Origin: Colwellia sp.
GTDB lineage: Bacteria; Pseudomonadota; Gammaproteobacteria; Enterobacterales; Alteromonadaceae
Length of the DNA stretch: 64,000 nt
NCBI GenBank assembly: GCA_020630795.1
Contig: JAHDIK010000015.1
Span: 1-64,000 of the forward strand
Direction of reading: 5' to 3'
Positions 2,097 through 35,966 of the stretch are shown here, one piece after another. The notes below the pieces were generated by a model. That model made no database searches, had not been told where the DNA came from, and was given only the letters and a program-made list of their open reading frames with translations. Numbering within the stretch: position 1 is the stretch's first letter; the number at the start of each line of letters is the position of its first letter. Both the position numbers and the translations under genes were made by a program.

Positions 2097-2251
2097 TTTA
2101 GTTTTTATTTGAGATAGCCCGTTTATTTATTTTATATTTTTTAACTATTTAGATGCAGTTCTTCATAAACCTAATTTATGCCATTTTCAAGATTATTATG
2201 GTAAATTAAATATAAATTAATTATTTTATTTATAATTTAAAGTTGGGTTTT

Positions 2252-7170: not shown

Positions 7171-7551
7171 GGTTTCCCCGTTTAAATTTAAAGTAAATAG
7201 ATTACATGTTGAAGTTATTATGTGTAATCTCGAATGGTGCGTATTTAAAATACAATTTTTAAATGTAAACTTCAACGATTAAAAACTGCTGTTTGTAATA
7301 ATTCGTTATAATAAATCTGTTGTTAATACGAATTAGTTACTACTAACTTGTTAGTAGATAAAATAATTGATGTATCCCTGTGTTTTTGTGAAGGTTTTAA
7401 TCGTTTGGAGTGGTAAAACATAAGACTTTCGTAGTACGTAGGGTTGTATATAAACGTTAGTTCTCTATTTACTTTAACCAAGGTATTTATGTTTTATATG
7501 ATTTTCTGTTATCTTTGATTTTTAATTATTAAATATAAAAAAGAGGTGGTT
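7171..7551. promoter_or_regulatory. Divergent promoter region of TBDR 1 and the DUF1080 gene
   Basis: This 381-bp AT-rich gap lies between the divergently transcribed TBDR 1 and DUF1080 lipoprotein genes and must hold both promoters. Its one clear structured element is the inverted repeat at 7340-7357, listed separately. I see no convincing small gene or RNA here. Confidence 0.5.
7340..7357. promoter_or_regulatory. 18-bp inverted repeat, candidate operator
   Basis: Perfect 8-bp arms, CTACTAAC and GTTAGTAG, are separated by TT. The size and position in a divergent promoter region suit a dimeric regulator. The regulator is unknown. Confidence 0.45.
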
Positions 7552-8463
7552 GTGGTTGCATTACTTAATAAGGTTTTTGGTAAAAAAATAAAGTTTACGG
7601 CAATCGTAGTCGCTTTGTCTGTTACATCTTGCTCAGTTTCTACAACTAATCAAGGAGATAGCTTAAGCGAAAGTATAGAGATAGAGTCGCAATGGACATA
7701 CTTACTTGACGATAAGTTAACTCAATGGGAGATTTGGTCAGGTGTTCCTCATCACACCGTTAAAGACCTACCAGACGGGACATATACGGCTGATAACCTA
7801 AACATTCACGGCGATCCTAAACTGGCCATGGGGTTGAATAATGACGTAAAAGATGTATTTTCTGTTATTGAGGGTGATGGCGGTCCTATTCTTTATATAA
7901 CGGGAGAGATATACGGTGGTTTAACCACGCTTAAATCATTTAAAAATTACCATTTATCTTTAAAAGTAAAGTGGGGTGAGAAGAAGTGGGCTCCAAGGTT
8001 AAATGCAAAACGAGATAGTGGTTTGCTGTTTCATTGCAAAGGAGAGCATGGAGCATTTTGGAGAGTATGGAAAGCTTGCCAAGAGTTACAAATTCAAGAA
8101 TCAGATTTTGGTGATTACATTCCTTTAGCGGGACCATCGGGTGTTGTTAAAACAATTTATAAAGACGGAAAACCAACATACTCACCAACCGGTAAACCAC
8201 TTTTTACCAAAGATTATACCGACGCATACATAGAGCCCGACTATCCTAATGGACAATGGAATACAGTTGATCTTTATGCCTACAACGATAAAGCATATTT
8301 TTCAGTTAACGGTAAAGTTGTTATGGTTGTAGAGCAATCTAAAGATATAGATGGAAACATTCTCGATGAAGGACAAATTCAACTTCAATCTGAAGGTGCT
8401 GAAGTGTATTACAAAGATATAAAAATTAGAAATATTTCAACACTCCCTAAACATGTTCTGTAG
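7552..8463 (+). CDS. DUF1080 (3-keto-disaccharide hydrolase-like) lipoprotein (1)
   Basis: About 303 residues with a lipoprotein signal: a hydrophobic stretch, then VTSC as lipobox. The rest fits DUF1080/PF06439, a concanavalin-like beta-sandwich fold now linked to 3-keto-glycoside hydrolysis. Typical stretches are LLDDKLTQWEIWSG near residue 50 and DSGLLFHCKGEHGAFW followed by QELQIQE, with a late NGQWNTVDLYAYNDKAYFSVNGK strand pair. The GTG at 7552 is chosen because AAGAGG lies five bases upstream; a GTG two codons earlier would overlap that site. It is followed 100 bp later by a halogenase in the same direction. Activity on a galactan-derived keto sugar is inference only. Confidence 0.75.
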   Translation: MVALLNKVFGKKIKFTAIVVALSVTSCSVSTTNQGDSLSESIEIESQWTYLLDDKLTQWEIWSGVPHHTVKDLPDGTYTADNLNIHGDPKLAMGLNNDVKDVFSVIEGDGGPILYITGEIYGGLTTLKSFKNYHLSLKVKWGEKKWAPRLNAKRDSGLLFHCKGEHGAFWRVWKACQELQIQESDFGDYIPLAGPSGVVKTIYKDGKPTYSPTGKPLFTKDYTDAYIEPDYPNGQWNTVDLYAYNDKAYFSVNGKVVMVVEQSKDIDGNILDEGQIQLQSEGAEVYYKDIKIRNISTLPKHVL

Positions 8464-10078: not shown

Positions 10079-10106
10079 TTTTGAATATACAATAATTGAC
10101 TATAAA

Positions 10107-11630
10107 ATGAATGAAATTAAACCAATAAATAATATTGTTGTTTGTAGTTCTGGTAAAAATGACCTAAAACTAAATCAACTTGACGCATTACTCGCAGGTT
10201 ATTTCACTTGTATAAAATTAATATATTCTCTCTATGATTGTAAGATTAATATAACGCATGTGTGTGAAGATTTAGAACGATTTATCGAAACGAAGTCGGT
10301 AACCACACTTGATTATCAGCAGTTAGCTTTTTTACATTCCGTAGGCTTAACTGAAAAACAATTAATAAAACTTGCCAATGGTAAGCATTGCTTAGGTAAT
10401 CGACTTGTTGATTGGTCAAAAGACGATCATCAAGTTAACTTAGTTGACGGTCTTTATGGCGTGAATTTCAACAATGTAGAGTTTCACGATTATATGGCAT
10501 GGTCCTTAAAACAAAATAATACATTTAGCTACGATGATTTTTCAATTGGAGCACAAATGGCCAAAACGAATCGATTTACACATCCTTCTAAAGATAAAAG
10601 TTCAATTCTATCCACGTTTAGTTACGGCTTAAACGTCGATACCTATTCTTTAGTGAAGCTAATGCAAGTTATTGTTAGTAATGAAAGCTCAAGAGTAAAT
10701 ACAATCGTTGGTTATGTTAAAAAATCAAATTTTGTATCTAAGCATATAGAGTCTTTACAAATAACATCCGTTAACGATGAACAATTAATTAATACTGATT
10801 TTTTAATTGAATGTTCAGGAAATTCAAGTCATTTTAAGTTAGATAAATCTGTGCATTCTCAATATCTATCTAAAAAGTTTATCGTCGCAGAAATCGAAGA
10901 TATCGAAAACGATACCGTTATTAACAAAATCCAACAGCACACCTTTGGTTGGAGTAAGATTTACCACCTTAAAAAAAGTAAGATAATTGAGTGTTGTTAT
11001 ACAGAACAGTCAGAAATTGCCGTAATAGAGGAGTTACTACAAAAAGGTATACATGTTAACCAAGAATCTATTCAAGAAAAATCATATAACCATGAATTTA
11101 TTTTGAATGCGTGGCAAGGAAACTGTTTATATGTAGCGCAGTCATCAGGAAATATTGAGCCTATTTTCGATCATTATTTGTCACTTCTATCTAAAGATAT
11201 CGAAAGGTGGTTATCGCTGTTTCCTTCTATGGAATATAATCAGCAACTTGTTGAATACTATAATCAAGACTATGTAACGGTTCATAAAAGTCTACACGAT
11301 TATGTATATGCTCATTATTATTTTGCAAAAGAAGAACAATTCAGTTTTTGGTCGGCGATACATGATGAACCAATGCACGAGTCGTTGTGTCATTTAACAG
11401 ATACATTCGCAAAAATATGTATTGTTCCCGAATTTGAAAATAATTACTTTCAACCGAATCAATGGTTTTCATTATTCTTTGCTTTAGGTTTAGTGCCAGT
11501 AGATCAAAACCCAATAATTTATTGTGAAATGAACATTGATAAAAAATTGACAGATCTTAAAAAGTACATCTCCGACTTTACAGTAAAGATTCCTAAATAT
11601 AATCAGTTTGTTAGTTACCATCGTTTGTAA
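10107..11630 (+). CDS. Degenerate halogenase-family paralogue lacking FAD and active-site motifs
   Basis: About 507 residues, the same length as the halogenase just upstream and alignable to it along its length. NTFSYDDFSIGAQMAKTNRF matches the SLGASICNAGKF region. ECSGNSSHFK matches VDCSGFKAQ, and GNCLYVAQSSGNIEPI matches NNCLAIGLSSNFLEPL. Key motifs are gone: the N terminus reads IVVCSSGKNDLK instead of GGGTAGW, WxWxIP is replaced by FGWSKIYHLK, and the LEST that follows EP is replaced by IFDH. The open frame is intact without stops, so the protein is probably made and selected. A non-catalytic partner or regulator of halogenase 2 is a reasonable guess. The start is uncertain: a GTG at 10056 would overlap the upstream gene, and ATG 10107 has no clear ribosome site. 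Confidence 0.7.
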   Translation: MNEIKPINNIVVCSSGKNDLKLNQLDALLAGYFTCIKLIYSLYDCKINITHVCEDLERFIETKSVTTLDYQQLAFLHSVGLTEKQLIKLANGKHCLGNRLVDWSKDDHQVNLVDGLYGVNFNNVEFHDYMAWSLKQNNTFSYDDFSIGAQMAKTNRFTHPSKDKSSILSTFSYGLNVDTYSLVKLMQVIVSNESSRVNTIVGYVKKSNFVSKHIESLQITSVNDEQLINTDFLIECSGNSSHFKLDKSVHSQYLSKKFIVAEIEDIENDTVINKIQQHTFGWSKIYHLKKSKIIECCYTEQSEIAVIEELLQKGIHVNQESIQEKSYNHEFILNAWQGNCLYVAQSSGNIEPIFDHYLSLLSKDIERWLSLFPSMEYNQQLVEYYNQDYVTVHKSLHDYVYAHYYFAKEEQFSFWSAIHDEPMHESLCHLTDTFAKICIVPEFENNYFQPNQWFSLFFALGLVPVDQNPIIYCEMNIDKKLTDLKKYISDFTVKIPKYNQFVSYHRL

Positions 11631-13058: not shown

Positions 13059-14558
13059 CTATAACTTGAAGTAATCTTTATGGTTTGGAAGTTTACCCAC
13101 TTCATGATTGATACCATCATTTAAACTATCCATGAAGAGCTTTATATCTTGCCATTCAGATGTTGTCATTTCTCGAGGTAAATCTACGTTAGTAGGGTAG
13201 TAATGTTGCCCAGCCAATACCTGAAGCCAACTTTCATATGGAAATAAGGAATCACTCGGAAGGTTAATATAACCAGTATTTTTAAATTCTTTTAAATATG
13301 CCTTTAGAGACGTTGGAATATCCATTTTTGCGCAATCCGACCAAAAGCTAGAATCCCTGCGTTTAGTCGTGCAGTAATGAGCTATCAAAAAGTCTCTAAT
13401 TGTTAGGGCGTCATGACGAAAACGTTGATTAAAAATTTTAGTTTCGTGTTGTATGTCGTTACCACTTTTTAGTGAATTCATTAGAACTAAAGCATATTTA
13501 TGAGATAAATGTATGCTTGTTGATTCAAGGGGCTCAAAAAAACTACTTGATAAACCTAGAGCAACACAATTCTTATACCAAGGTGTTTTTACTATTCCTG
13601 TATTAAATTTAATGGTTCGTGGTTGCGTAATTAATTCTTCACCCTGTAGAGAGTTTATAAATTCAATTCTAGCCTGTTCATCAGATAAATATTTACTTGA
13701 ATATACATAGCCATTTCCATGCCTACTTTGTAAAGGTATTTTCCAACGCCACCCAGCATTCATTGCAATAGACTTTGTAAAAGGAAAGGGAGGTTCGAAA
13801 CTTTTGGTTTGTGCAACTATCGCTTTATCACATGGGAGGTATTTTTCCCAAGATTCATATTCGCACTGTAAATTATCTTTGATTAATATTCCTTTACTGC
13901 CGCTACAGTCAACGAAGAAGTCGCCTGAAATACTATCATGGTTTGTTAGGTTTACTCTTTGTAGGTCTCCATTATCTTTATTTTGTACCGAGCTTACAGT
14001 ATCGGATATAAAGTTAATACCATGCTTAATTGCATATTTTTTCAAAAAATCAGCGAGCAAGCCTGCATCAAACTGATATGCATAGAAAAGGTTGGACAGG
14101 GGGTAGTAATACCCTGGTTTGGGAAATTTAGGAATAATCGGTGGATTGAATACTTCCTTATAAGCAGCAACAGCGCATGGCGAAAAATTATTTAAAGGCT
14201 TGGAGTTGAACTGTTTATTATATGCAAGCCACAACTTTCCAAAAGGAATGTCAGTATATTCAGTTCCTACTTTTCCAAATGCATGCATGTATGAATGACC
14301 AACTTCCGACCAGTTTTCAAATTGAATACCATATTTAAATGAACCGTCAATTTGATGAATGAAGTCTTTTTCGTTCAAACCTAAATAGTTGACTAAATTT
14401 ACAATAGGTGGAATTGTAGCTTCACCAACACCAACAGTTGGTATATTAGGGCTTTCAATCAAGGTAATTTTATATTCAGATTTAGGTAAACCTTTTAGAA
14501 GTACAGAAGCCGAAATCCAGCCAGCAGTTCCTCCTCCTATAATTATTATATTTTTCAT
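13059..14558 (-). CDS. Flavin-dependent tryptophan halogenase family protein (3)
   Basis: 499 residues starting MKNIIIIGGGTAGW, with the FAD-binding motif at residues 8-14. GSFKYGIQFENW carries the presumed catalytic Lys, GWRWKIP is the WxWxIP motif, and FEPLESTSIHL carries the conserved Glu. It lies downstream of the TBDR 2 and glycan-binding lipoprotein genes on the same strand, but a terminator at 14641 separates them. It may depend on read-through or its own promoter. It is clearly homologous to the genes at 2252 and 8564 but not a recent copy, since the sequences differ throughout. Confidence 0.87.
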   Translation of the reverse strand: MKNIIIIGGGTAGWISASVLLKGLPKSEYKITLIESPNIPTVGVGEATIPPIVNLVNYLGLNEKDFIHQIDGSFKYGIQFENWSEVGHSYMHAFGKVGTEYTDIPFGKLWLAYNKQFNSKPLNNFSPCAVAAYKEVFNPPIIPKFPKPGYYYPLSNLFYAYQFDAGLLADFLKKYAIKHGINFISDTVSSVQNKDNGDLQRVNLTNHDSISGDFFVDCSGSKGILIKDNLQCEYESWEKYLPCDKAIVAQTKSFEPPFPFTKSIAMNAGWRWKIPLQSRHGNGYVYSSKYLSDEQARIEFINSLQGEELITQPRTIKFNTGIVKTPWYKNCVALGLSSSFFEPLESTSIHLSHKYALVLMNSLKSGNDIQHETKIFNQRFRHDALTIRDFLIAHYCTTKRRDSSFWSDCAKMDIPTSLKAYLKEFKNTGYINLPSDSLFPYESWLQVLAGQHYYPTNVDLPREMTTSEWQDIKLFMDSLNDGINHEVGKLPNHKDYFKL

Positions 14559-16414: not shown

Positions 16415-19400
16415 TTAAAAGTTAATACGCGCACTTAAACGATACTGACGGCCTGTTTTATACGCATTTACGGTACGGCTTGTATCAACGTTATCTTTTA
16501 ATGCATTACCCTCGTCAAACAATACAGTGTTTCCGTCTGCGTCTGTCATTCCTAAATCCGCAGAGGTGGAGGTGTAGTATGTACGGTGTAATTCATCAGT
16601 TAAATTAAGCGCATGGAATGAAAACGACACATTTTTGTCCCATTGATATGTAGCGCTAAAATCTAACTTAGTAGACGCATCTTTCCACGTTGCACCATTA
16701 TGTACTTCACGGTTAACTAATTGATCATCGTTGTAACGATGAGTTAAACGCATTTGGTGCCCGTCTTGCTCCCAATACAACGTAGTATTAGTGCTATGGC
16801 GAGGTGTGTAGGCCTGTGGAAGCGCTTTAAGTTCTTTTTGTAATTCTTCAGAGAATTCAGCTTCAGATTCAGAGTTGGCAAATGTATAGTTAAAGTTAAC
16901 GCCAAGCCCTGACCATATTCCAGGTAAGAAGTCATATGTTTGATTATATGAAAATTCAACACCTTGGGTTTCTGTTTTTTTACCGTTTCGTGTTACTGAT
17001 GCGGTAAATGAAGCACAGTTGAAGTCGTAAGGGTTATTAAACCCACCTTGTGCTGTTCGGTAAGGTAAACAATCAGTATTAGTTGTATTAACTGTATTTT
17101 GAACTGATTCTGAACCGTCAAATTGGTTTACTACAGTATTGTATTCACCAGGGAGTATTCTAAAGTCTTCCCAATCAATTGCCTCTAAGTCATAGTTACG
17201 GCGAATATCTTTAATAAACACTTCGCCAGTTACTTGCTCCTCAAAGTTTTTCATGTCCTTTCTGAAGTAAGCTAATGATACCATTCCAGATTTGTTGAAA
17301 TACCATTCGTAAGACAAATCGATGTTAGTTGATTCAAGTGGCTTTAAGTCAGGATTAGTTTTAGTGATTTTATTTGCAGCTCTATTCCAAACTGATTCTG
17401 AAACACTAAAGCCAGGCTTTAAGCTATCGAACGCTGGGCGAGCCATAGTTTTGGATGTTGCGAAGCGTATAATAGTGTCTTCATCAAGTGCATAGTTCAG
17501 GTTTAAGCTAGGTAATAAAAGGCTTGATTTACCTTTACCAGTACCTGAAAATTGACGAGACCAAGCATCTTGCTCTTCTTCGATTATACCTTTATCCACC
17601 AATAATGAAGCTTCGTTTTTGGCAGTTGATGTATCCCAATAGCGATAGTTAGCCCACCAGCTTTTGTTTCCTTGATTATTTCGAGTCATGTTACCAGGTT
17701 CTTGAGTAACATTTCCGTTGTCGTCGTATGTAGTTGCAAATGATTCATCTAGTTTCCAACCGGTATTCGCTGGTGCACCCCAGTCATACTCTATTTCGTT
17801 GTCGAAACACGCACTGTCAGCTGGATTTTCCCAAGGCTGAGAGAGTAATGTGTCATTTGTACCTACAGCAGTGTGCGCAGGACAAAGATTCAATTTATTA
17901 TTGTAAATTTGTCTTTCATAAACGAGGTCGTACGCTGAAATAACACCGTGACCGTTATTAAAGCCCATCGACGAATAGCCAAATGAATTGTTTTTAGTTT
18001 TAACGTAACGTACACCAACGTTACCCGTTAGTTTGCCTTCAAAGTACTCAAAGTTTAACTTTCCGTATAGAGATACGTTGTCTTGTTCTAAGTCTCGGTC
18101 ACCATCATTATTGTGTTTTGCTTCAATGTTGGGGAGGCCGAATATAGCATTTGTTGCTCTAACTGGATCTATAATCCCCCAACCATTTAAATAATTTTGA
18201 TTATAATTTGAATTAGTTCCAACTAAGCTCCCCATGAAGTCATCGACTGGAATCCCTGTTCCACCTATCATATCTATTAAGCGGATATCTGAAGCTGATT
18301 GACCGGATATAACATTACCTCGGTCGTCAAAAACGGTGTCAACGGAGCTTGAAAACTGTTGTCTATCGGTATAAACGACTTTATGACGATTTGAAACCTT
18401 TCCACCAAACTCCACTGATGTTAAACCAGCAAAGTCAACAGCCCAGTCAAAATCTAAGAACAAAGATTTATTTTCATCGTAAGATGTTTGGTTATATTGA
18501 GCTACATAACCAGCATGGTGTTGATTACCGTCATACGGATTAAAACCACTATTTGAAATGTTGTCGTTACCATTTCCATTTCCTGACGGAATAAAAACAA
18601 ATGGAGTGTCGCCAGTAACAATAATACATTCACCTGATGTACAGTCGTAACCTACTGGAACTATATCTTCAGGAGACACTTTATCTAGAGCTTTACGAGC
18701 ATTAAGTGTTTTCCAGTTATCAGTATTAATTGTCCAGTTTGGGAGTGATTCAAAATCAGTTTTAGACCAACCTGTTGTTAATTCAACACTTAAATCTTCT
18801 GTAATTTCATGATTGATTTTTAATGTTGCTACTTTGTTTTCAGTTTGGTTACCACCAATACTTCGACCTAATGCACCTGTACCGTAACGGTTTAGTGTTT
18901 TTGTAAATGTATGGTTTTGTGTATTAATTGTCCACCAATCTACTTGAGGGTCTGCTCCAACTAACACGTCAGTGCTACCAGGGCCAATAGTACGAGTTGT
19001 TTCGGAAGTGAAGTTTTGATTTTCTTCTTTTTCAAGACCAGGTCGGCTAGTACCAATGCTGTGTCGGTCAGCATTGTACTCTTGTTTTGAGTAACTTAAA
19101 TCTAATTGCACATCTGTTACATCTGTCGGTAGCCATTGAATACCGGCCGTAATAGTTTCTCTAACTCTATTATTTAAATGAGCGTTATAGCTTACGCTAG
19201 CTGGCATGAAACCATATTGATCTTCTGTAATTGGTTCACCTGTAACTGCATCTGTAGCTCTACCAGCTTTAACTTCTTGAACTTCATAAGGTGCTAACCA
19301 GTTACTGCCAATCTCGTCTCGACGTGAAGATGACGTTTCTTTTGAAGCTGTAACAATTATACCTAAAGTATCATCTAGCATCTTTTCAGAGAATGTACCG

Positions 19401-20068
19401 CTAATCTTATAATCGTCTTCATCAGCGAATTCGTTTAAGCGACCTTGTACTTCTAAAATTCTTTTATCTTCATCTACCAATAAAGGTTTTACAGTACGTA
19501 AAATAACATTCGCACCTAAAGAACCTTCATCGTGATCGGCGGCAGATGTTTTAATAACGTTAATTGAAGATAAAATATCTGATGAAAATGTACTTAAATC
19601 TACAGATTGATCTGATGTACCTCCACCTTCACCAGCGCCGTTTAAACTTGATGTTAATGCAACACCGTTTAATGAAATTTGGTTTAAGTTAGCACCAGCG
19701 CCACGAACAGAAATACGCGTACCTTCACCATCGGACTCTTGTACTGTTACCCCCGTAATACGAGATAGTGCATCAGCGATGTTTTGGTCGGTTGATTTAC
19801 CAATATCTTCCGCGAAAATACCATCAGAAACACCATCAGCTAGGCGTTTTGAATTTATTGAACGTTGTATACTACCTCGGTAGCCTGATACTTCAATCAC
19901 TTCAATTTGTTCTTTTTCTTTTTTAGCTTTTGCTTTTTTTTCAGCAACGCTAATTTGTTCTTCTACTTTCTGTGACACTTCTTGAGCGTACACTGAAGTA
20001 GCTGCGCCTGATACCAACAATGGCATCATCGCAATAGCGAGCGGCTTTAACTTAAATTTTACAGACAT
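16415..20068 (-). CDS. TonB-dependent outer-membrane receptor (2)
   Basis: 1217 residues. A signal peptide ends near SVYAQ and is followed by a charged Lys/Glu-rich stretch. The Ton-box-like EQIEVIEVSGYRGS comes next, then the plug (DQNIADALSRITGV, SVRGAGANLNQISLNGV). The large barrel ends LSARINF with the C-terminal Phe. It is clearly related to TBDR 1, sharing the Ton box, plug and segments such as TMARP and LEST.FDLSYEWYFN. A GGGGGAA ribosome site precedes ATG 20068. It heads a unit with the glycan-binding lipoprotein, which points to uptake of the locus substrate, probably galactan oligosaccharides. Confidence 0.94.
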   Translation of the reverse strand: MSVKFKLKPLAIAMMPLLVSGAATSVYAQEVSQKVEEQISVAEKKAKAKKEKEQIEVIEVSGYRGSIQRSINSKRLADGVSDGIFAEDIGKSTDQNIADALSRITGVTVQESDGEGTRISVRGAGANLNQISLNGVALTSSLNGAGEGGGTSDQSVDLSTFSSDILSSINVIKTSAADHDEGSLGANVILRTVKPLLVDEDKRILEVQGRLNEFADEDDYKISGTFSEKMLDDTLGIIVTASKETSSSRRDEIGSNWLAPYEVQEVKAGRATDAVTGEPITEDQYGFMPASVSYNAHLNNRVRETITAGIQWLPTDVTDVQLDLSYSKQEYNADRHSIGTSRPGLEKEENQNFTSETTRTIGPGSTDVLVGADPQVDWWTINTQNHTFTKTLNRYGTGALGRSIGGNQTENKVATLKINHEITEDLSVELTTGWSKTDFESLPNWTINTDNWKTLNARKALDKVSPEDIVPVGYDCTSGECIIVTGDTPFVFIPSGNGNGNDNISNSGFNPYDGNQHHAGYVAQYNQTSYDENKSLFLDFDWAVDFAGLTSVEFGGKVSNRHKVVYTDRQQFSSSVDTVFDDRGNVISGQSASDIRLIDMIGGTGIPVDDFMGSLVGTNSNYNQNYLNGWGIIDPVRATNAIFGLPNIEAKHNNDGDRDLEQDNVSLYGKLNFEYFEGKLTGNVGVRYVKTKNNSFGYSSMGFNNGHGVISAYDLVYERQIYNNKLNLCPAHTAVGTNDTLLSQPWENPADSACFDNEIEYDWGAPANTGWKLDESFATTYDDNGNVTQEPGNMTRNNQGNKSWWANYRYWDTSTAKNEASLLVDKGIIEEEQDAWSRQFSGTGKGKSSLLLPSLNLNYALDEDTIIRFATSKTMARPAFDSLKPGFSVSESVWNRAANKITKTNPDLKPLESTNIDLSYEWYFNKSGMVSLAYFRKDMKNFEEQVTGEVFIKDIRRNYDLEAIDWEDFRILPGEYNTVVNQFDGSESVQNTVNTTNTDCLPYRTAQGGFNNPYDFNCASFTASVTRNGKKTETQGVEFSYNQTYDFLPGIWSGLGVNFNYTFANSESEAEFSEELQKELKALPQAYTPRHSTNTTLYWEQDGHQMRLTHRYNDDQLVNREVHNGATWKDASTKLDFSATYQWDKNVSFSFHALNLTDELHRTYYTSTSADLGMTDADGNTVLFDEGNALKDNVDTSRTVNAYKTGRQYRLSARINF

Positions 20069-20494
20069 TTTATGTTCCCCCGAATTAATACCTGTACGTT
20101 ATTAATGTACATGAATTTGACATTGATAACGGTATTACTTACTTGTTATTTTTTCATTATATATAAAACAAAGTTTTTATATATGTATGAGTGTATTTAT
20201 TGTTGAACCGGTTGTAAAGCAAATTTTGTATATAATTTAGCTAAATTATATACGGTTATCGATAGTATAAAACAACTAAATGTTTCGTACTTGTAACATC
20301 TCTATAAACTAATGATTTCGTAGGTTTGAATAGTTTTAACGAGTCGCTTGTAAACTCGGGACTTCTTTTAATAAGTTGGTTAGTTGAATACTTTTGTAGG
20401 ATATATATCAGATTTGCTTGAATGCTCATTTTATGTGTAATATTTATTTTTTGATGTATCATATTTGAAGTAGGAAATACAAAATTAAAACTAA
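20069..20494 (-). promoter_or_regulatory. 426-bp regulatory gap upstream of TBDR 2
   Basis: This gap separates TBDR 2 from the upstream peroxidase gene on the same strand and must contain the TBDR 2 promoter. It holds the 26-bp palindrome at 20228-20253. A CCGG-centred AACCGGTT at 20206-20213 could be a LacI/GntR-type operator half-match. A small TGTAC/GTACA repeat lies near 20093-20111. A 68-codon open frame at 20256-20462 looks like chance. Confidence 0.5.
20228..20253. promoter_or_regulatory. 26-bp perfect palindrome, candidate operator
   Basis: The sequence reads identically on both strands over 26 bp, centred on AGCT, with outer ends GTATATAA and TTATATAC. It is all A/T apart from GC at the centre and the two end pairs. 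It sits about 160 bp upstream of the TBDR 2 start. A binding site for a dimeric or tetrameric regulator is the simplest reading; a terminator is unlikely because the stem is so A/T-rich. Confidence 0.6.
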
Positions 20495-22132
20495 TTAACG
20501 TTTTCTATATAGAAGAATGAATATGAAGAGCACCATAATAATCAATAACCAGACTAACCTAAAAGTGTTACTGGGAGTTTCAATAACTAATTCTATATTT
20601 GAATTTCCGTCTAACTTGTTTGAATTACTCGTTAGCTTATATGTGTATTTTTCTCCTTTCTCTGCTGTGAAGTCTTTAAAAGGAGAAGTGGTTACCCAAA
20701 AGTGAACATTGTTGTTTCTAACTATTTCTATCGAATATCTTGTTTTATGTTCCTGACCATTAATTTCCGTATTCCATGTTATTTCAGGGTAACCTAGTGA
20801 TGATAACTTAATGTTCGCGTCTTTAATTATCCGAGGAGCTGAATTTATTGTTGTGTTCGATTCCCATTGCAGCGTTGGACGGTCAAACGGAAAGGTTTCA
20901 CTCTTAACGCGTGGGTCGGTTAATGATTGTGATAGAAATGCTATCAAAGCACGACGTTGCATTTCGGTAAATTGAAAGTTGTATTCTTCTCCGTTTGGTA
21001 GTTTTGAGGCAATATTTTTAAAGGGCACCTCTGCGTATGCATCAATAACATCTTCAAGCGTATGAAAATTACCTGTATGCATGTAATTAATTTTAAGCCC
21101 TGTATTTCGTAAACTTGGAACTTTCATCGCGCCAATGTCTTTATCGTCTAAAGAAATAATTTGGTGGCCCGCATCTGCGTTTTGTCCTTGAATACCTATG
21201 TTGTAGAACTTGTTGTCGGTAAATAAAGGAGGTTTGTGGCAGCTGTTACATTCGTGTTGTTTAAAAAATTCCCATCCAAGGTTTTCTATATAAGGTAATG
21301 GTTTGTTGTTTTTTACCATTTCATCCCATGGAGTTTGGTCAGCTATTAATGTTCGTTCGTATGTTGCAATGGCAAATGCAATGCGTTTAAGTGTAATTGT
21401 TGAATCACCAAAAGCATTTTGAAATAGACTGGGGTACGTTGAAAACGTTGCTAATGCTTTTTCGATGTCGGGCGTAAAGTTTGAGGCAAGGGCAAGCGGG
21501 GCAGATTGCTGAAGCTTAAATGAAACTTCTTCTGCTGTTTGGCCTTGTTTAGCCATTTCTACGGTGCTCATTAATGGTCCTAGTGCTTGATTTTCAAGCG
21601 CTCCACCTTGTTTTATCGCTATTTTCCCTGTATCAGGATCGATAAATTGGCTTTGAGCTCTACCATCCCAAAAGTTTGAGTTGGCCCAAATGCCAAGAAA
21701 AAATGGTTGGGCTGTTCTTCCTGTAGCCTGAGGTGCAAGGTTAAATATAGGGTGTTTAACTGGTTGGCCGTTGGGGTTTCTTAGCACTACGCCAGGAGAG
21801 CCTAAGGTATCGTCTTTAGTATTGAGTGTGTTGTCGTAACCAGGAAAGAGTGCTTGGCGTTTATCTGCGCCATTTACACTAGGCATGTGGCAAGTACCAC
21901 ATGCCATCGTATTATCCGTAGATAGCTGTTCGTCCCAAAAAAGTATTTTTCCTAAAATTCGCTTTTCTTCGCTGAAAGGATTTTCCGTTGGGTACGGTAC
22001 GCTCGGGAGCTGAGCGTATTCTTCGATATTTTCGCTATTCGCGAATAAAGGGGGTTCAAAACTAATGAATAGCAACAAGGCAAATAATGTATATAGAGAA
22101 TGTTTACGAATATTTACCTTGTTCATTGTCAT
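20495..22132 (-). CDS. Diheme cytochrome c peroxidase (MauG/CCP family) with C-terminal membrane anchor
   Basis: 545 residues. A signal peptide ends near PPLFANS. Two c-heme sites, CGTCH near residue 77 and CNSCH near residue 295, bracket family stretches such as NFWDGRAQSQ and KVPSLRNTG. The catalytic core ends near residue 400. A beta-rich extension of about 110 residues follows, then a final transmembrane helix and RKR, so the protein is probably tethered to the membrane facing the periplasm. Family members reduce peroxide or oxidise proteins and small molecules at the heme pair. It lies 28 bp downstream of the octaheme cytochrome gene, so the two are probably an electron-transfer unit. 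Their place in a polysaccharide locus is unusual. Confidence 0.85.
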   Translation of the reverse strand: MTMNKVNIRKHSLYTLFALLLFISFEPPLFANSENIEEYAQLPSVPYPTENPFSEEKRILGKILFWDEQLSTDNTMACGTCHMPSVNGADKRQALFPGYDNTLNTKDDTLGSPGVVLRNPNGQPVKHPIFNLAPQATGRTAQPFFLGIWANSNFWDGRAQSQFIDPDTGKIAIKQGGALENQALGPLMSTVEMAKQGQTAEEVSFKLQQSAPLALASNFTPDIEKALATFSTYPSLFQNAFGDSTITLKRIAFAIATYERTLIADQTPWDEMVKNNKPLPYIENLGWEFFKQHECNSCHKPPLFTDNKFYNIGIQGQNADAGHQIISLDDKDIGAMKVPSLRNTGLKINYMHTGNFHTLEDVIDAYAEVPFKNIASKLPNGEEYNFQFTEMQRRALIAFLSQSLTDPRVKSETFPFDRPTLQWESNTTINSAPRIIKDANIKLSSLGYPEITWNTEINGQEHKTRYSIEIVRNNNVHFWVTTSPFKDFTAEKGEKYTYKLTSNSNKLDGNSNIELVIETPSNTFRLVWLLIIMVLFIFILLYRKR

Positions 22133-22159
22133 TAATGGTTATCCTATAATTTATGTACG

Positions 22160-24328
22160 TTAACGAAGATACCGGCTAAAAAATTGATAGCTTTTTTGAT
22201 CTGACGTTTTTTGTGCCAAGCTCATACCAAGTTGTGCTAGTTGAGTAGGGTTATTGATTTTAGATATCATCATACGCAATTGCATTAACGCTTGTTTAGT
22301 TTGGCCCACATTGTCTTTAGCGAGTATATAAAGGTATAAGTATTGTCCATTATGTGGCTCTAACTTCACCGCTTGTTTAAACGCATCAATAGACTGCTGC
22401 TTTTGTTTTGTTCTAATAAGGTGTAACCCAAAGCTGTAATGAATCATTCCATCGTTGGGTAAGGCTTTAAGGGCTTTGTCAAAAATCGCACGTTCATTAC
22501 GGGTATCGCCAGTACTTTTATAAATGTCGGCGAGATTGATATAAGCCGCAGGGAAGTAGGGGTCGATATCTATCGAGCTTTTAAGCGATGAAATGGTTTT
22601 GTTTAGCTGACCATTTTTATAGTAAGTCATACTTTGGTTAAGGTGGCCTTCGCCGCGCCATGTATTTATTTCATTAGCGGTAACTAACTCATCAAACGCT
22701 TTTTTAAGCAGTGTTTGATCAATGCTGTTTACGTTTATTAAGTGATTAGCTGCTGCTGTACGTATTGCTTTGAGTTTGTCTGATAATAACGACGCGTAAG
22801 TTAGTGTTTTATGTTCAGGTAAAACGAGTTGGCCAACACGTGCAACTGCTAATCGAATAAGTGGTTCTTTATCATTAACCCAAGGCTTAATCGTGTTGTC
22901 TGACAATGATTGTGTTGTTTGCACCAACGCTGTTATAGCAGTTGCTCTTACAATCGCATTCAATGTTTTGTCGTTAATTAGTTCAAGATGGTCTTGAAGC
23001 TGCACAGGCTTACCGTTTTGAATATCTAAGAAGTGCTGATATGTTTTTGAGTAGCCTTTTGGTTTGCCATGCCATTTTTCTAAGCTTTTAGCTGCCCATT
23101 CGTTGTCTTTGTTTTCATGACAATTTGTACAAACATTCGGTGTATTGGTTGATGTTGATAAATGTGGTTGAGGTACTTTAAAGCTATGGTCACGTCTAGC
23201 ATCTACCCCCATATAGGTGGTGTTAGGCATATGACAACTAACACATTGGCTAGCTTCTGTTTGTTCTTGGTGACCTGTGTGTGTTTTAGTATTGAATGTT
23301 TCTGCACTGTGACATTGTAGACATAATCCGTTATCAGGCGCTTTGATTTTCATTGTGTGTTGGTCGTGACAATCAATACAATTTACGCCTGCTTTATACA
23401 TTTTACTTTGTAAAAATGAGCCGTAAACGTAAACCTCTTCTTTTATTTGGCCGTCTGGATGGTACATAGGCGGTGATAAAAAGCTAGGAGAGAACTGATC
23501 AAGAAATGGTTTTGTTGGTTCAATACCATCAGTTAATGGAGAACGTAAAGAGTGACACGCAAAACATGTATCCATGAAGGCGTTATCTCGTTTGCCGCCT
23601 TTCCATATTGCAGTTGTTTTACCTGCTTCTCTTAACCATTTATTAATTATGTTAGGTTGTGTGCGTATGTGTTTTTCTGATTTTTTAAGCTTATCATGCT
23701 TAGGCATTTCACCATGGCACGATTGACAACCTACATTGATGTTATCGTAAGTCGTGTTGAATTGATCGGTAGTTGAATCGTAATTACGTTTAAGTCCGTC
23801 AGAGTGACAGTCGGCACACATACCGTTCCAATTTTGTAATGGTTGTTTCCAGTGCAGTCTATCGTTTTGTTTTATATCTTCATCTTGATAAATTACAAAC
23901 CATTTTTGTCCACCTTCAGATTTTGGGCGACTATCCCAAGAAAAAGGTAGCACCTGATATTTACCTTGTGTTGTTTTTACAAGATATTGTTGCAGCGGGT
24001 AATGCCCAAAGGTGAAATCTATTTTATAGGTTGCAGTGTTGCCTTCATGGTTCATTTCCATATAGAACGCCGCATCTTTTTTATAAAATCGAGCGGTTTG
24101 AGAGTAATGCGTTACCGTTATGTTATTGAAATTTCCTAGAATTGTTTTATCACTTGCAATGTCCATTGCTTTTGCATGGTCTGACTTTTTCCAATCGGAA
24201 ACTTGTGTTTTGTGGCAAGAAACGCAGTCGGTTACTCCCTTATTGGTTTGAGCTAGAGCGCTAAAGTTTCCAAAAAATAGAGTACCAATTAAGAGTAGTG
24301 AAGATAAATGAATACGAGATAACAGCAT
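22160..24328 (-). CDS. Octaheme c-type cytochrome with HEAT-like and TPR domains
   Basis: About 722 residues. A signal peptide (MLLSRIHLSSLLLIGTLFFGNFSALAQ) precedes eight CxxCH heme sites: CVSCH, CADCH, CQSCH, CFACH, CIDCH, CLQCH, CVSCH and CTNCH, in the first ~410 residues. HEAT-like helices follow (RATAITALVQ, RTAAANHLIN), then TPR repeats (PAAYINLADIYKSTGDTRNE, GMIHYSFGLHLIRTKQKQQS). This matches the cytochrome c554-like family with TPR tails. It should carry electrons in the periplasm; the TPR part probably binds a partner, most simply the adjacent peroxidase. ATG 24328 is chosen over an in-frame GTG at 24358 because that GTG sits just behind a strong hairpin and has no ribosome site. 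Confidence 0.85.
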   Translation of the reverse strand: MLLSRIHLSSLLLIGTLFFGNFSALAQTNKGVTDCVSCHKTQVSDWKKSDHAKAMDIASDKTILGNFNNITVTHYSQTARFYKKDAAFYMEMNHEGNTATYKIDFTFGHYPLQQYLVKTTQGKYQVLPFSWDSRPKSEGGQKWFVIYQDEDIKQNDRLHWKQPLQNWNGMCADCHSDGLKRNYDSTTDQFNTTYDNINVGCQSCHGEMPKHDKLKKSEKHIRTQPNIINKWLREAGKTTAIWKGGKRDNAFMDTCFACHSLRSPLTDGIEPTKPFLDQFSPSFLSPPMYHPDGQIKEEVYVYGSFLQSKMYKAGVNCIDCHDQHTMKIKAPDNGLCLQCHSAETFNTKTHTGHQEQTEASQCVSCHMPNTTYMGVDARRDHSFKVPQPHLSTSTNTPNVCTNCHENKDNEWAAKSLEKWHGKPKGYSKTYQHFLDIQNGKPVQLQDHLELINDKTLNAIVRATAITALVQTTQSLSDNTIKPWVNDKEPLIRLAVARVGQLVLPEHKTLTYASLLSDKLKAIRTAAANHLINVNSIDQTLLKKAFDELVTANEINTWRGEGHLNQSMTYYKNGQLNKTISSLKSSIDIDPYFPAAYINLADIYKSTGDTRNERAIFDKALKALPNDGMIHYSFGLHLIRTKQKQQSIDAFKQAVKLEPHNGQYLYLYILAKDNVGQTKQALMQLRMMISKINNPTQLAQLGMSLAQKTSDQKSYQFFSRYLR

Positions 24329-24368
24329 TTTAATGTAGTTTTTATTAAGACTTAGCACGCTAATGTAT

Positions 24369-28025: not shown

Positions 28026-31319
<3,294 letters not shown>

Positions 31320-31498: not shown

Positions 31499-31870
31499 AT
31501 GAACAACTCACAAAATACACTTAATAGATATTGCTTAGCACTTGATTTAAAAGATGACCCTGCATTAATTGCAGAATATATTGAGTACCACAAGCCTGAA
31601 AATGCTTGGCCACAAATAACGGCTAATATGGCAGAAGCCGGTATTCTTGATATGGAGATTTACCATTTAGGCGATCGTCTGTTTATGATTATGGAAACTA
31701 ATGATAGTTTTGACCCAACAGCAGAGCCAAAAACTGATGAAGGTAAAAAGAAATCAGATGAATGGGAAACGTTAATGTGGAAATATCAACAACCGCTTAA
31801 GTGGGCAAAAGACGGCGAGAAATGGGTTAAAATGGATTTGATTTATGATTTAAAAAAAGCATTAAAATAA
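31499..31870 (+). CDS. L-rhamnose/L-fucose mutarotase family protein
   Basis: 123 residues matching PF05336: NRYCLALDLKDDPALIAEYIEYHK at the start, GILDMEIYHLGDRLFMIMET in the middle and conserved late Trp residues (WETLMWKYQQPL). The family interconverts anomers of L-rhamnose or L-fucose. L-fucose is 6-deoxy-L-galactose, and porphyran is built partly of L-galactose-6-sulfate, so an L-galactose mutarotase role would fit the locus; this is inference. A purine-rich ribosome site (GGAGTAGAGAAG) lies upstream. It is monocistronic and ends at the terminator at 31938. Confidence 0.82.
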   Translation: MNNSQNTLNRYCLALDLKDDPALIAEYIEYHKPENAWPQITANMAEAGILDMEIYHLGDRLFMIMETNDSFDPTAEPKTDEGKKKSDEWETLMWKYQQPLKWAKDGEKWVKMDLIYDLKKALK

Positions 31871-31987: not shown

Positions 31988-34900
31988 CTACTCAACAGGG
32001 GTTAGCGTTACATTGTCTATATATACAACACCCGGTGAGCCTAAGTTATCTATATGGAAGTTAAACGGAAATACGCCTGTACCTAACTTACCAGCAGGTA
32101 TATCTAAGCTCATGCTTTGCCAGTCGGTTGTAGCGTTGTTAAAGGTTTTGTTTATCCATCCTGCTAAGGTTGTGTTTATCCACAGTGTTGCTTGACCTGA
32201 TACTATCTTCGCATCAAATGCTATGCGATATACCTTTGTTTGGTCTACACCTGATAGGTTTGCGTATTGTAGTTTTAGTCCACCATTTGTTGTGTCTACA
32301 AGTAAGCCAGAAGCACCGTCTTTTGCAGCAACAGCATCAACTGAGAATGTAGCGAGGTTTAGTTGACTTGTTTCACTTCTCGCAAATAGTTTTGCGGAAT
32401 CAATGGCTCCGTCAAATGTTGATTCTAGACCTGAGATTAGGTTTGGATCTAAAGCGTTAACCGTTACAGAAACTGTATCATTAATGCCATTACTTGCCGA
32501 CGCTGTTATTGTAGCAGAGCCTGAACCAATAGCAGTTACTAGCCCATTTTCACTTACCGTTGCAATATTTTCATCAGAGCTTAGCCATGTTAATTCGGCA
32601 TTCACAACGCCTGATGGCATTACACTTGTACTGATTTGGTTTGTTTGTGAAGCATCTAATGTAATATCATTGCCAAGCTCGATACTGCTTACTTCTATAG
32701 CAGGAATGATATTGGTAACATCAAGAACAGTAGAACTGATACGGCCGCCGGCATCTGAGAATGTGATACTAACTGTGTTGTTTTCAGACAACAAGTTATG
32801 TGGAACGGGTACATCTATTGTACCAAAAAATAGATCTCTGTTCGCTTGATCATATCCTGCCCAGTCATCTGGTACCGTTACTTGTGTACCATTTACCGAA
32901 AGAGTCGGTTGCTTTGATTTATTATGGTCGCGTCCAATCCCCATTCTTAATGATGCTGTTGATTTATCAGCATCTAACGTTGTTACATCGACACCATTGA
33001 GTGTAAACGTAATTGCTTGATTCGCTGTAATTGTCTGTAAGTGTTCATCCGCATAGTATGTTTTTCGTTGCGCGGTTGTGGTGTTTTCAATGGTTTTATC
33101 TAGTGTTACAACAAGTTTTACAGTTTCTGACGGGTCTAAAGTTAACGTGCCAATATTTAACGCATCACCTGAAACGTCAGCGTTAGTAACTTCGCTAGTG
33201 GTTGTTAACGTCGCACCTTCGTCGGCCGGAACTTTCAAACGCGAGATATCAATCGATGTATACTTGTAACCTAACATTTCACGTAAATTGATTGAAATGT
33301 CTTTTTGTTCCCATTCTAAGTTACTAACAATAATGTACGCCTTGTCATCATTTATGAATGTTGCGACTTGCGTATCAGGATCGTTATTTGAAATATTAGC
33401 TCGGTAACCTTCCACATCTTTCCAAAATTCGAGGAAAAGCATGTTATTGTTTTCTAGGTAGTTGTCAGCCGCATTGGGGTCGATAAATTCCCATCGATTG
33501 GTTGAAGTGTTTAACGTAATATTGTCTGGATTTGGGCGCCACATACTAGGGTTATAAGGGTGTCCATTACCTTGTGATGGGTTCTGCCAATACCATGTAG
33601 AGTGACCTGTAATAAATGGAATAGACGTTAAAATACGGTCTTCTCGTTCCATTAGTTCTAGCATGATGTGGTTAAACGATTTTATTGTTTGACTATTTAC
33701 CGTTGCGTCGTACTCAATAACACCTGCTGGTCGATCAACAATCGCACCGTACTCTGTGATTGCGTGAGGCTTAACTACATCCCACTTAAACATGGAGTAG
33801 GTTTCAATTAAATCTAATATTGCTTTTGAATTACTGCCAGATCTTGCGCTGTTTGCTCCAACAACGTTAACACCATCATATAAGTGTACTGAAAATGCAT
33901 CCATATGCTCACCGGCATTATCCATAAACATTTTCATACGACTTTCCCAATGTCCAAAATCCCACAGTTCAAGCGATGGCCATGCAGATGCAAAACCAAT
34001 AACACTGACGTTGGATAATTCTGGTCGCGAATCAAATTCTTTACCTATTTCAGCAAACCATTGAGTCATGTGCTCACGGGTTTGTTCTTCGCTATTGTTG
34101 TAATTTTCTTTGTACTCACCTGCATGAACGAACGGCTCATTCATCGGTTCATAAAATAGCGGTCGTGAATTGTCATCATAATAGTGAGTAAAGTAATCTG
34201 CTGCCCAACGCGCACCATCAATAGGTTCGTTATTGTCGTACATAGGATTAGCAGGGTGGTCAGTCACTACAACACGATTTGAGGCAATGTCAGAATTTAT
34301 ATTGTTGTAATAGTTAGATATGTTTGAGGCACCATTTGATATGGCTGTAGCTGTTGTAGGGTAGGTTCCATCGGCATCTAGCTGGTTTTTTACAACCGTT
34401 TGAGATAACGGACTCCAGAATTGTCGACCATGATCTGCTCGATAATTATTTTTAAAGTTTTCTGCCAATTCTCTAGTGTAATTACTATTTGTAAAGGTAT
34501 CGTGTACGTTTAAAAACTTTGTTCTATCGAGTGTCGAAACGTTTCCGTAAAACTGTTGAGTATTAAGATCAATGGTAATTTCTGTTGATGATGTTACGGG
34601 TGGCGTTGTGGCAGCGCCTTCACCATTTACTGTTACTGTTAATGATCTCGGTGTAGTGCTTTTACCATCACTAATATTAAAGGTATATGCAATGGTTTGT
34701 GTTTCACCTTCGACTAAATCTGCGTATGTTGCGGGTGATATTGAAACCGTTGAACTTGATGTAGTAACCCCTGTGCTTGGATTACTTGCGTTTGCCGTGA
34801 GGTTTGAAATAGACAATGTATCACCGTCTGCATCGGCGCTTCCTTGTAAAAGGTTGATCTCAAGGTCAGCATCAGATTCGTTGAGAGAAACAGCTATATT

Positions 34901-35044
34901 ACCATTGTGAGTAGGCGCACTATTGGCTGGTGGGGTTGGAGTTTCAGGTGTAGGGTTCTCTGTTGAACCCCCTCCACCTCCACAAGCAGTTAATACAGTA
35001 ATTGCTAAGGGCGTTAATAATACATTTAGTTTATTTTTATACAT
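31988..35044 (-). CDS. GH86 beta-agarase/porphyranase, multimodular lipoprotein
   Basis: 1018 residues. Lipobox LTAC is followed by GGGGGS and a Thr/Pro linker. A cadherin-like domain (IAVSLNESDADLEINLLQGSA style) spans about 45-145. The GH86 catalytic region begins near residue 155 (ITIDLNTQQFYGNVSTLDR), with the acid/base Glu in YEPMNEPF near residue 300 and the likely nucleophile in AITEYGAI near residue 430. Beta-sandwich domains follow, then a Big_2 domain (TVSENGLVTAIGSGSATITA) and a C-terminal CBM-like jelly roll. GH86 enzymes cleave agarose or porphyran internally; which one cannot be decided by eye. As a surface lipoprotein it would make the oligosaccharides imported by the TBDR. Confidence 0.88.
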   Translation of the reverse strand: MYKNKLNVLLTPLAITVLTACGGGGGSTENPTPETPTPPANSAPTHNGNIAVSLNESDADLEINLLQGSADADGDTLSISNLTANASNPSTGVTTSSSTVSISPATYADLVEGETQTIAYTFNISDGKSTTPRSLTVTVNGEGAATTPPVTSSTEITIDLNTQQFYGNVSTLDRTKFLNVHDTFTNSNYTRELAENFKNNYRADHGRQFWSPLSQTVVKNQLDADGTYPTTATAISNGASNISNYYNNINSDIASNRVVVTDHPANPMYDNNEPIDGARWAADYFTHYYDDNSRPLFYEPMNEPFVHAGEYKENYNNSEEQTREHMTQWFAEIGKEFDSRPELSNVSVIGFASAWPSLELWDFGHWESRMKMFMDNAGEHMDAFSVHLYDGVNVVGANSARSGSNSKAILDLIETYSMFKWDVVKPHAITEYGAIVDRPAGVIEYDATVNSQTIKSFNHIMLELMEREDRILTSIPFITGHSTWYWQNPSQGNGHPYNPSMWRPNPDNITLNTSTNRWEFIDPNAADNYLENNNMLFLEFWKDVEGYRANISNNDPDTQVATFINDDKAYIIVSNLEWEQKDISINLREMLGYKYTSIDISRLKVPADEGATLTTTSEVTNADVSGDALNIGTLTLDPSETVKLVVTLDKTIENTTTAQRKTYYADEHLQTITANQAITFTLNGVDVTTLDADKSTASLRMGIGRDHNKSKQPTLSVNGTQVTVPDDWAGYDQANRDLFFGTIDVPVPHNLLSENNTVSITFSDAGGRISSTVLDVTNIIPAIEVSSIELGNDITLDASQTNQISTSVMPSGVVNAELTWLSSDENIATVSENGLVTAIGSGSATITASASNGINDTVSVTVNALDPNLISGLESTFDGAIDSAKLFARSETSQLNLATFSVDAVAAKDGASGLLVDTTNGGLKLQYANLSGVDQTKVYRIAFDAKIVSGQATLWINTTLAGWINKTFNNATTDWQSMSLDIPAGKLGTGVFPFNFHIDNLGSPGVVYIDNVTLTPVE

Positions 35045-35231: not shown

Positions 35232-35966
35232 TTATAATTTCCTCACCCATATATTTCGATAACTTACTTCATCATTATGATCTTGTAACCAAATTGGAGC
35301 ACATCCATGAGCTTTACCATATTGAGCTTTACCTCGATAAGTAGTATTGCCTTGAATCTCTGTATGGTTTTGAATAAGTACACCGTTATGTAACACTGTT
35401 ACATATGCCTTATCTTTTACCTTACCTGAATTATCAAAAGTTGGAGCTTTGTATATTATGTCGTAAGTTTGCCATTGACCAGTAGGTAAGCTTGCATTAA
35501 CTAATGGCGCTGTTTGTTTGTATATTGAACCGGCTTGACCGTTCGAGTATGTTCTATTTTTGTATGAATTTAATACTTGTACTTCATATCTTCCTTGTAA
35601 AAATATTCCACTATTACCAGAACCTTGACCTTTCTTACCCGCGATTGGAGTTGGTGTCATAAATTCAATGTGAAGTTGCATATCGCAAAACTTTTGCTTA
35701 CTACTTATGCCGCTAGTGCCGGGAACTATTGTTGTATATCCATTTTGAATTGACCATTTAGCAGGGTTATCTTTTCCATGATGCCACTCGTTTAAATGCG
35801 TACCGTCAAATAAAACAATTGCATCTGAAGGTACTGGAGAAGGTTTTACTTCAGCAGGTATAGGTTCCCAAACCTCTGTTAATTTTGGATCGGGTAAATT
35901 ATCATTTTTCGCGGCGATAGTTGTACAACTTGTCACCATTAGCAAAGCAGGAATGTATTGTTTCAT
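35232..35966 (-). CDS. DUF1080 (3-keto-disaccharide hydrolase-like) lipoprotein (2)
   Basis: 244 residues, a compact form of PF06439. A short signal with VTSC as lipobox is followed by IVLFDGTHLNEWHHGKDNPA, the family N-terminal strand. GSGNSGIFLQGRYEVQVLNS carries the most conserved block, and the C terminus is DHNDEVSYRNIWVRKL. It is shorter and more canonical than the paralogue at 7552. It stands between GH86 and GH16, so a role in galactan processing is likely. The sugar-3-dehydrogenase usually needed to make 3-keto substrates is not evident in the window. Confidence 0.85.
   Translation of the reverse strand: MKQYIPALLMVTSCTTIAAKNDNLPDPKLTEVWEPIPAEVKPSPVPSDAIVLFDGTHLNEWHHGKDNPAKWSIQNGYTTIVPGTSGISSKQKFCDMQLHIEFMTPTPIAGKKGQGSGNSGIFLQGRYEVQVLNSYKNRTYSNGQAGSIYKQTAPLVNASLPTGQWQTYDIIYKAPTFDNSGKVKDKAYVTVLHNGVLIQNHTEIQGNTTYRGKAQYGKAHGCAPIWLQDHNDEVSYRNIWVRKL

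Follow-up and report, generated by a model that had tools for sequence, protein, structure and literature searches.

What do two c-type cytochrome genes do in a locus for the breakdown of an algal galactan? We addressed this question in 64,000 nucleotides of a Colwellia genome (positions 1 to 64,000 of contig JAHDIK010000015.1; hereafter, the window and the home genome), in which an octaheme c-type cytochrome (OCT) and a diheme protein of the CCP/MauG family are encoded side by side at 20495–24328. The coordinates of the open reading frames (ORFs) agree with a preliminary description of this DNA, which had placed the two genes on the same strand, with short gaps, beside two sulfatase genes and a gene for a TonB-dependent receptor (TBDR2). 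It had also assigned them to a galactan locus, and the joint presence of TonB-dependent receptors (TBDRs), glycoside hydrolases (GHs), sulfatases, a LacI-type regulator and Leloir genes identifies the surroundings as a porphyran/agar-type galactan polysaccharide locus. We find members of the OCT family repeatedly in glycan and galactose loci, most of them from Alteromonadales-type bacteria. Our proposal, tentative and somewhat short of probable, is that OCT is a multiheme redox module that serves glycan catabolism in the periplasm and would carry electrons between a partner and the respiratory cytochrome pool, the diheme protein being an optional neighbour.

Accounts of algal galactan breakdown have dealt mainly with hydrolysis, desulfation and P450 demethylation, and the term ‘cytochrome’ was not found in three papers on carrageenan and agar loci (PMC6952198, PMC5943477 and PMC6923384). 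A conserved multiheme family that recurs near galactan genes would imply a further oxidative or respiratory step that is omitted from pathway maps. The preliminary description had held that redox proteins are absent from agar and porphyran pathways, which is too broad: porphyran use is known to include a redox step, the demethylation of 6-O-methyl-galactose by P450 enzymes (PMC8360166).

An unnamed octaheme family with an OcwA-like fold

OCT has eight CXXCH motifs and no CXXCK motif. It matches the Pfam models Cytochrome_C554 (E = 5.5e-10), Cytochrom_c3_2 (2.2e-8) and TPR_8 (1.1e-10), and no NCBIfam model scored above its cut-off for the window protein. The signal sequence predicts that OCT is exported. 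An internal ATG at position 24328, which by eye gives a better signal peptide than the GTG of the ORF, is the likely start; residues are numbered here from the codon with first base 24355. A scan of genome contigs yielded 393 OCT coding stretches, the best 80 of which are the OCT loci of all counts given here. Eight motifs are present in one frame in 78 of these relatives, and the remaining two are broken frames. In an alignment of 59 proteins (58 loci and the window; near-copies and two broken frames were left out), with a mean column identity of 48%, all eight CXXCH motifs are invariant, as are six histidines outside the motifs, and three further histidines are kept in 85–95% of the rows. 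Judged by sequence, OCT represents a strongly conserved family without a name; in our searches of open-licence papers, none of the titles or abstract openings listed refers to it.

The full-length model (pLDDT 84.9) consists of a heme domain, helical repeats from about residue 418 to 539 and then a TPR tail. HEAT and TPR parts had both been assigned to this protein; the TPR part stands, whereas HEAT reaches only a sub-threshold Pfam score (E = 0.074), although the model does place helical repeats in this region. Because the TPR part filled the match list of the full-length model, the heme domain was folded alone (pLDDT 74.2). Its best Foldseek match is OcwA, the nonaheme terminal reductase of Thermincola potens (PDB 6i5b; 2.2e-9); the next entry is at 0.099, with nothing else below 0.001. 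Structural comparison (VIA) aligned 318 residues with OcwA (Z = 14.5, rmsd 4.2), followed by an undecaheme S-layer cytochrome (Z = 8.7) and MccA (Z = 6.5); NrfA scored Z = 3.8. A profile search gave a collinear match between OCT and OcwA (E = 9.2e-11), and the NrfA-type segments CIDCH, CTDCHMP...DH and CIQCH align to OCT motifs 5, 7 and 8. With its collinear series of CXXCH motifs and shared modelled fold, the heme domain can be assigned to the OcwA/NrfA/HAO/c554 multiheme superfamily. On the basis of the collinear motif order in this alignment, motif 4 would correspond to heme 5 of OcwA and heme 1 of NrfA, the substrate heme, and heme 2 of OcwA seems to have no counterpart in OCT.

OCT nevertheless differs from each characterized relative. 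It shares the whole heme domain and motif order with OcwA, but OcwA has nine hemes with two open sites and OCT has eight motifs, so that OCT is not OcwA proper; helical repeats and TPRs take the place of the three-helix end of OcwA; and OCT occurs in Gram-negative bacteria, often in glycan loci, whereas OcwA serves metal respiration. Full-length similarity to the group of NrfA, HAO, octaheme nitrite reductase and MccA is weak. NrfA has five hemes, with a catalytic CXXCK motif that is common but not universal, in contrast to the eight CXXCH motifs of OCT and the absence of CXXCK from all 59 rows, which sets OCT apart from NrfA. The sulfite reductase MccA has one CX15CH heme motif and a heme–copper site; OCT has no C-X11-16-CH stretch, all eight of its motifs being CX2CH.

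The fold raises an alternative that we consider unlikely, namely that OCT, like its superfamily relatives, is a genuine reductase whose substrate is a small molecule (nitrite, hydroxylamine, a sulfite-like compound, peroxide or an organic compound); it would then be kept beside glycan genes because this substrate is available on algal surfaces. OcwA, the closest fold, has two open hemes and a pair of histidines (HH) at heme 5, and reduces nitrite and hydroxylamine, but slowly, with a very low nitrite rate, and it does not reduce sulfite (PMC6703420). His359 of OCT, in an HxxH motif, is invariant in all 59 proteins and aligns with the first histidine of what we read as the distal HH pair of OcwA. 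A set of eight CXXCH motifs is compatible with an active site, as octaheme tetrathionate reductase combines eight CXXCH motifs with a Lys-ligated active heme (PMC12285233), and the likeness of the heme domain to MccA also favours a reductase. However, no nitrogen or sulfur respiration gene occurs among about 30 annotated neighbour ORFs of other OCT loci, and sulfate esters yield no reducible substrate.

Recurrence near sulfatase and galactose genes

Matches to OCT at E = 1e-40 occur in 60 of 394 genomes sampled from the order and 137 of 395 sampled from the family, the home genome included; no more than a few candidates were scored in each genome searched, and all OCT and diheme counts are therefore lower bounds. 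Both 10-kb flanks are present in 57 of the 80 OCT loci, and the other 23 lie on contigs with incomplete flanks. A sulfatase-cluster ORF was found in 35 of the 80 loci and within 10 kb in 27 of the 57 fully flanked loci, and galT in 10 of the 80. By comparison, 8.3% of positions in the home genome are as close as this to one of its 22 sulfatases, a base rate that comes from this one genome, and the loci compared with it are the closest relatives of OCT, not a random sample. On a gene tree of the 59 OCT proteins, the sulfatase label requires 17 changes, at least 14 of them on well-supported branches (labelling began with the loci that have DUF1501 within three genes; gains and losses were not separated, and a contig cut short may look like a loss). 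The preliminary description had raised a special link to halogenases, which is not borne out: halogenase-like genes are present in only 5 of the 80 loci. The two functions that it had suggested, periplasmic oxidation of sugars and peroxide handling, are both possible.

A proposed redox role in glycan catabolism and its alternatives

We propose that OCT works in the periplasm, where it would exchange electrons with a periplasmic partner on one side and the respiratory cytochrome pool on the other. The partner could dock on the TPR/helical part, and electrons may pass through one open, catalytic heme, that of motif 4. As the reaction of this partner we would favour the oxidation of a sugar or oligosaccharide that the locus sets free, because in a second porphyran-type locus (G840) a cytochrome c is found together with a DUF7133/GSDH-like protein; by this analogy, periplasmic sugar oxidation is plausible in porphyran-type loci. 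The DUF7133 protein adjoins the cytochrome c, and its GSDH match of 24.4 bits falls just under the cut-off of 25. The diheme protein, optional for OCT, would be an inner-membrane-tethered, peroxide-driven oxidant of the MauG type that acts on a protein or small partner. The safest claim would be that OCT has a redox function in the periplasm that is connected with glycan use. A broader one, which we regard as doubtful, is that marine Gammaproteobacteria have repeatedly adopted a family with the fold of nitrite, hydroxylamine and metal reductases for the breakdown of sulfated glycans, in which it would form the periplasmic redox arm and act on sugars or sulfatase-fold partners, not on nitrogen compounds or metals.

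Several observations weigh against a glycan-linked redox role for OCT. The sulfatase label is not clustered on the OCT tree beyond shuffles (59 of 500 shuffles were as low), 45 of the 80 loci have no visible sulfatase, cut contigs included, and the narrow base rate and selected sample noted above limit the sulfatase comparison. OCT stands alone in 30 of the 80 loci under a 200-nt same-strand rule, and by eye lies among housekeeping genes in at least two genomes (L165 and L169). NrfA/HAO-type catalytic cytochromes have one penta-coordinate substrate heme, but heme ligation in OCT cannot be read from the heme-free model. No dehydrogenase candidate was found among the annotated window genes. Most OCT neighbours do not argue for periplasmic oxidation either, because most GalM and all SGL ORFs do not look exported: by eye, an exported appearance is limited to two of the 11 GalM-cluster ORFs near OCT, L055_4 and, at its start, the longer L067_6, and is seen in none of 7 SGL ORFs. 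On the other side, in favour of the proposal, L055 itself encodes a TBDR, a halogenase-like protein, a sulfatase and the exported-looking aldose-1-epimerase-type ORF, followed by OCT in two broken frames.

A second alternative, which strikes us as distinctly unlikely, is that OCT is a cytochrome of general respiration or stress, carried in variable, laterally exchanged islands, so that its glycan neighbours reflect the location of the island rather than function. The variability of its neighbours, the loci in which it stands alone and the housekeeping contexts are all consistent with this, whereas the frequencies of sulfatase genes and galT near OCT, and a run with GH2 and sulfatase genes that is conserved in two species, argue against it.

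Recurrent c-type cytochromes near sulfatases are also found as planctomycete-specific cytochromes (PSCyt) in Verrucomicrobia and Planctomycetes; PSCyt genes often adjoin sulfatases in Verrucomicrobia, and a role in carbohydrate use has been proposed for them (PMC5615132), but their named domains differ from those of OCT and the parallel drawn here is one of context. OCT lies directly 3′ of a DUF1800–DUF1501 gene pair, as the operon end, in 9 of the 80 loci, and in G790 DUF1501 and OCT are close, separated by one opposite-strand gene; DUF1501 was not found in the DNA examined around 69 of the 80. The DUF1501 proteins next to OCT carry, by eye, Tat-like RR signals, and we take DUF1501 to share the sulfatase fold. 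PSCyt genes presumably also neighbour DUF1501, a word that does not appear in the main text of the Verrucomicrobia PSCyt paper. That exported proteins of the alkaline-phosphatase fold (sulfatases and DUF1501) have OCT as their cytochrome partner, which would make it the equivalent, in Gammaproteobacteria, of the planctomycete-type cytochromes near sulfatases, is suggested by these arrangements but quite improbable, given how few loci hold DUF1501 and that we know of no reaction in which a sulfatase-fold enzyme needs a cytochrome.

Six-gene runs of two unannotated genes, an RND pump gene, DUF1800, a DUF1501 gene with Tat signal and OCT were seen in L029, L036, L049 and L059, and ASPIC/UnbV-type genes lie within three genes of OCT in 10 of the 80 loci. 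One candidate for the sugar chemistry, 3-keto-glycoside chemistry, was rejected: the window encodes two PF06439 3-keto-disaccharide hydrolase-like proteins, but no oxidoreductase partner was found among its annotated genes, and nothing related appeared among the literature matches listed. A mono-heme cytochrome is described as accepting electrons from a glucoside 3-dehydrogenase (PMC9915066).

The diheme gene is not a fixed partner of OCT

The minus-strand gaps, measured from ORF ends, are 96 nt from GH2 to sulfatase B (SulfB), 5 nt to sulfatase A (SulfA), 53 nt to OCT, 27 nt to the diheme gene and 426 nt to TBDR2. The two cytochromes had been read as a pair, which does not hold beyond this locus. 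A tblastn search found no diheme relative in the 80 OCT loci (incompletely covered for the 23 with cut flanks) and no OCT relative in the 20 kb examined around each of four full-length diheme relatives, and we therefore reject a fixed OCT–diheme module. As far as sampled, the pair is absent from other galactan loci, an outcome that the preliminary description had named as counting against its reading, whereas each gene by itself does have further polysaccharide-locus contexts. Two partial diheme relatives are likewise unaccompanied: the genome of G089 has no OCT match, and the 5.4-kb contig of G398 codes for a diheme domain and no OCT. All five full-length diheme carriers of the family sample also carry OCT, compared with 137 of 395 genomes overall; we consider this co-occurrence weak, because one carrier is the window genome, two share a genus and the OCT of G840 is only 37% identical.

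The sister species Pseudocolwellia agarivorans (L163), a culturable agar degrader, has GH2, two sulfatases, OCT and TBDR2 in the same order without the diheme gene; it has no close diheme relative, and the gap holds no diheme remnant beyond chance (best tblastn E = 8.3). A terminator-like hairpin lies just 3′ of its OCT gene (10859–10882), in a stretch with two terminator-like sites against 0.2 expected. Within the region upstream of TBDR2 (20069–20494 in the window), a block of 169 columns that contains TTTACA-17-TACACT shows 83% identity between the window and the sister species. This conserved block, and not the promoter scans, suggests that TBDR2 starts a new transcription unit after the diheme gene; the scans gave no excess of promoter-like sites in the window (43 versus 58.2 in shuffles) or in the sister gap (4 versus 6.3), nor of terminator-like sites in the window (11 versus 13.9). 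The diheme gene thus sits after the last gene of the shared run and before the conserved block upstream of TBDR2, and it was either gained here or lost in the sister species, alternatives that are equal on these data. The GC contents of OCT (0.378) and the diheme gene (0.388) are similar to those of their neighbours. Repeated TACGAAA words, seen by eye in the TBDR2 upstream region, could be operators.

A MauG-like diheme protein with a C-terminal hydrophobic helix

The diheme protein matches Pfam CCP_MauG (5.1e-36) and has two CXXCH motifs. Both the extra domain and the C-terminal helix of the preliminary description are recognizable: about 100 residues between the heme domain and the terminal helix matched no Pfam model and are kept in four relatives, and by eye this hydrophobic helix, present in three of the four, is followed by RKR. 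The name ‘peroxidase’ is apt as a family label but not in the classical sense. The protein matches the bacterial diheme cytochrome c peroxidase of PDB 1iqc at E = 1.9e-22, yet its residue 366, a tyrosine in all six aligned proteins, aligns with a methionine of that enzyme. In classical bacterial cytochrome c peroxidase this methionine is a ligand of the electron-transfer heme. Because the distal position is Tyr, not Met, the protein can be classed by residue as MauG-like rather than as a classical peroxidase. Among 29 further diheme sequences, 21 could be mapped at this position (15 Tyr, of which the calls for L094 and L107 have doubtful context, 4 Met and 2 His), the 8 unmappable rows including the paralogue in the home genome. 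In ungapped register this second copy reads YFHDGSVGKLEDAVRLM, by eye the classical Met form.

MauG and MbnH share with the diheme protein two c-type hemes, a tyrosine at the distal ligand position and a Gln/Glu pair; Gln182 and Glu192 are conserved, and we take them to be the peroxide-activating pair, the roles of these residues and of the distal tyrosine being those we assume for MauG and MbnH. Scores fall far below the curated cut-offs, however, with 116.6 of 443.85 bits for MauG (TIGR03791) and 125.9 of 362.85 bits for MbnH (TIGR04039). The extra C-terminal domain and helix are a further difference, and no partner gene is known (MbnP was not searched for).

Full-length relatives, 53–57% identical, occur in 4 other genomes of the 395 of the family; there is one more match at E = 1e-50 among 369 genomes of the class, and one at E < 1e-50 beside the home genome among 394 of the order. 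One relative lies in the second porphyran-type locus (G840), in the order GH16, PF06439 protein, cytochrome c, DUF7133 protein, GH2, GH43, Sel1 protein, GH16, diheme gene (opposite strand) and porphyranase-like protein. About 19 kb from this diheme gene (L171:9152-11968), a small ferredoxin-like ORF is flanked by a P450 gene and a gene of the ferredoxin-reductase type, a set that we presume to be a 6-O-methyl-galactose demethylase trio. P450/methyl-galactose chemistry was rejected as the reason for the diheme gene: a P450 search found no match in the home genome (94.8% complete), though the four other carriers have one. Two relatives from one genus lie directly 3′ of genes for a beta-helix protein of about 800 residues (L149:10697-13087 and L150:10865-13267), which by eye sit between arginine and Entner–Doudoroff type genes, and one relative has no evident glycan gene alongside. 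A 900-residue protein (L154:9171-11870) starts with a related diheme domain, followed, by eye, by an endonuclease/phosphatase-like domain, calcium-type repeats and a C-terminal sorting tail.

Gene layout of the locus

The principal features of the window are given in Table 1. The wider locus also encodes a GH16 enzyme, two more sulfatases, a LacI-type regulator, galT, galK and a sodium:solute symporter, and it has two TBDRs in all.

Table 1. Positions of the cytochrome genes and associated features in the window
Feature	Position	Strand	Remarks
Diheme CCP/MauG-family protein	20495..22132	-	545 aa; Tyr366, Gln182/Glu192, C-terminal extra domain, hydrophobic helix
Octaheme c-type cytochrome (OCT)	22160..24358	-	732 aa from GTG; predicted signal peptide, OcwA-like heme domain with 8 CXXCH, helical repeats, TPR tail
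OCT heme domain as modelled alone	23072..24244	-	
Sulfatase A (SulfA), PF00884	24412..26025	-	Member of same gene run
Sulfatase B (SulfB), PF00884	26031..27929	-	Member of same gene run
GH2 beta-galactosidase	28026..31307	-	First gene of the run
TonB-dependent receptor TBDR2	16415..20068	-	
Beta-porphyranase-like protein	31988..35044	-	
PF06439 3-keto-disaccharide hydrolase-like protein	35232..35966	-	
PF06439 3-keto-disaccharide hydrolase-like protein	7546..8463	+	58.6% identical relative in second porphyran-type locus (G840)
Promoter-like TTTACA-17-TACACT before TBDR2	20190..20218	-	Inside block conserved in sister species

Four PF04820 tryptophan-halogenase-like flavoproteins are encoded around two TonB-dependent receptors (2243-3772, 8564-10078 and 10056-11630 on the plus strand, and 13059-14558 on the minus strand). 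Between the GH2 and porphyranase-like genes lies a PF05336 rhaM-type mutarotase gene (31499-31870, plus strand), relatives of which occur in 7 of the 80 OCT loci.

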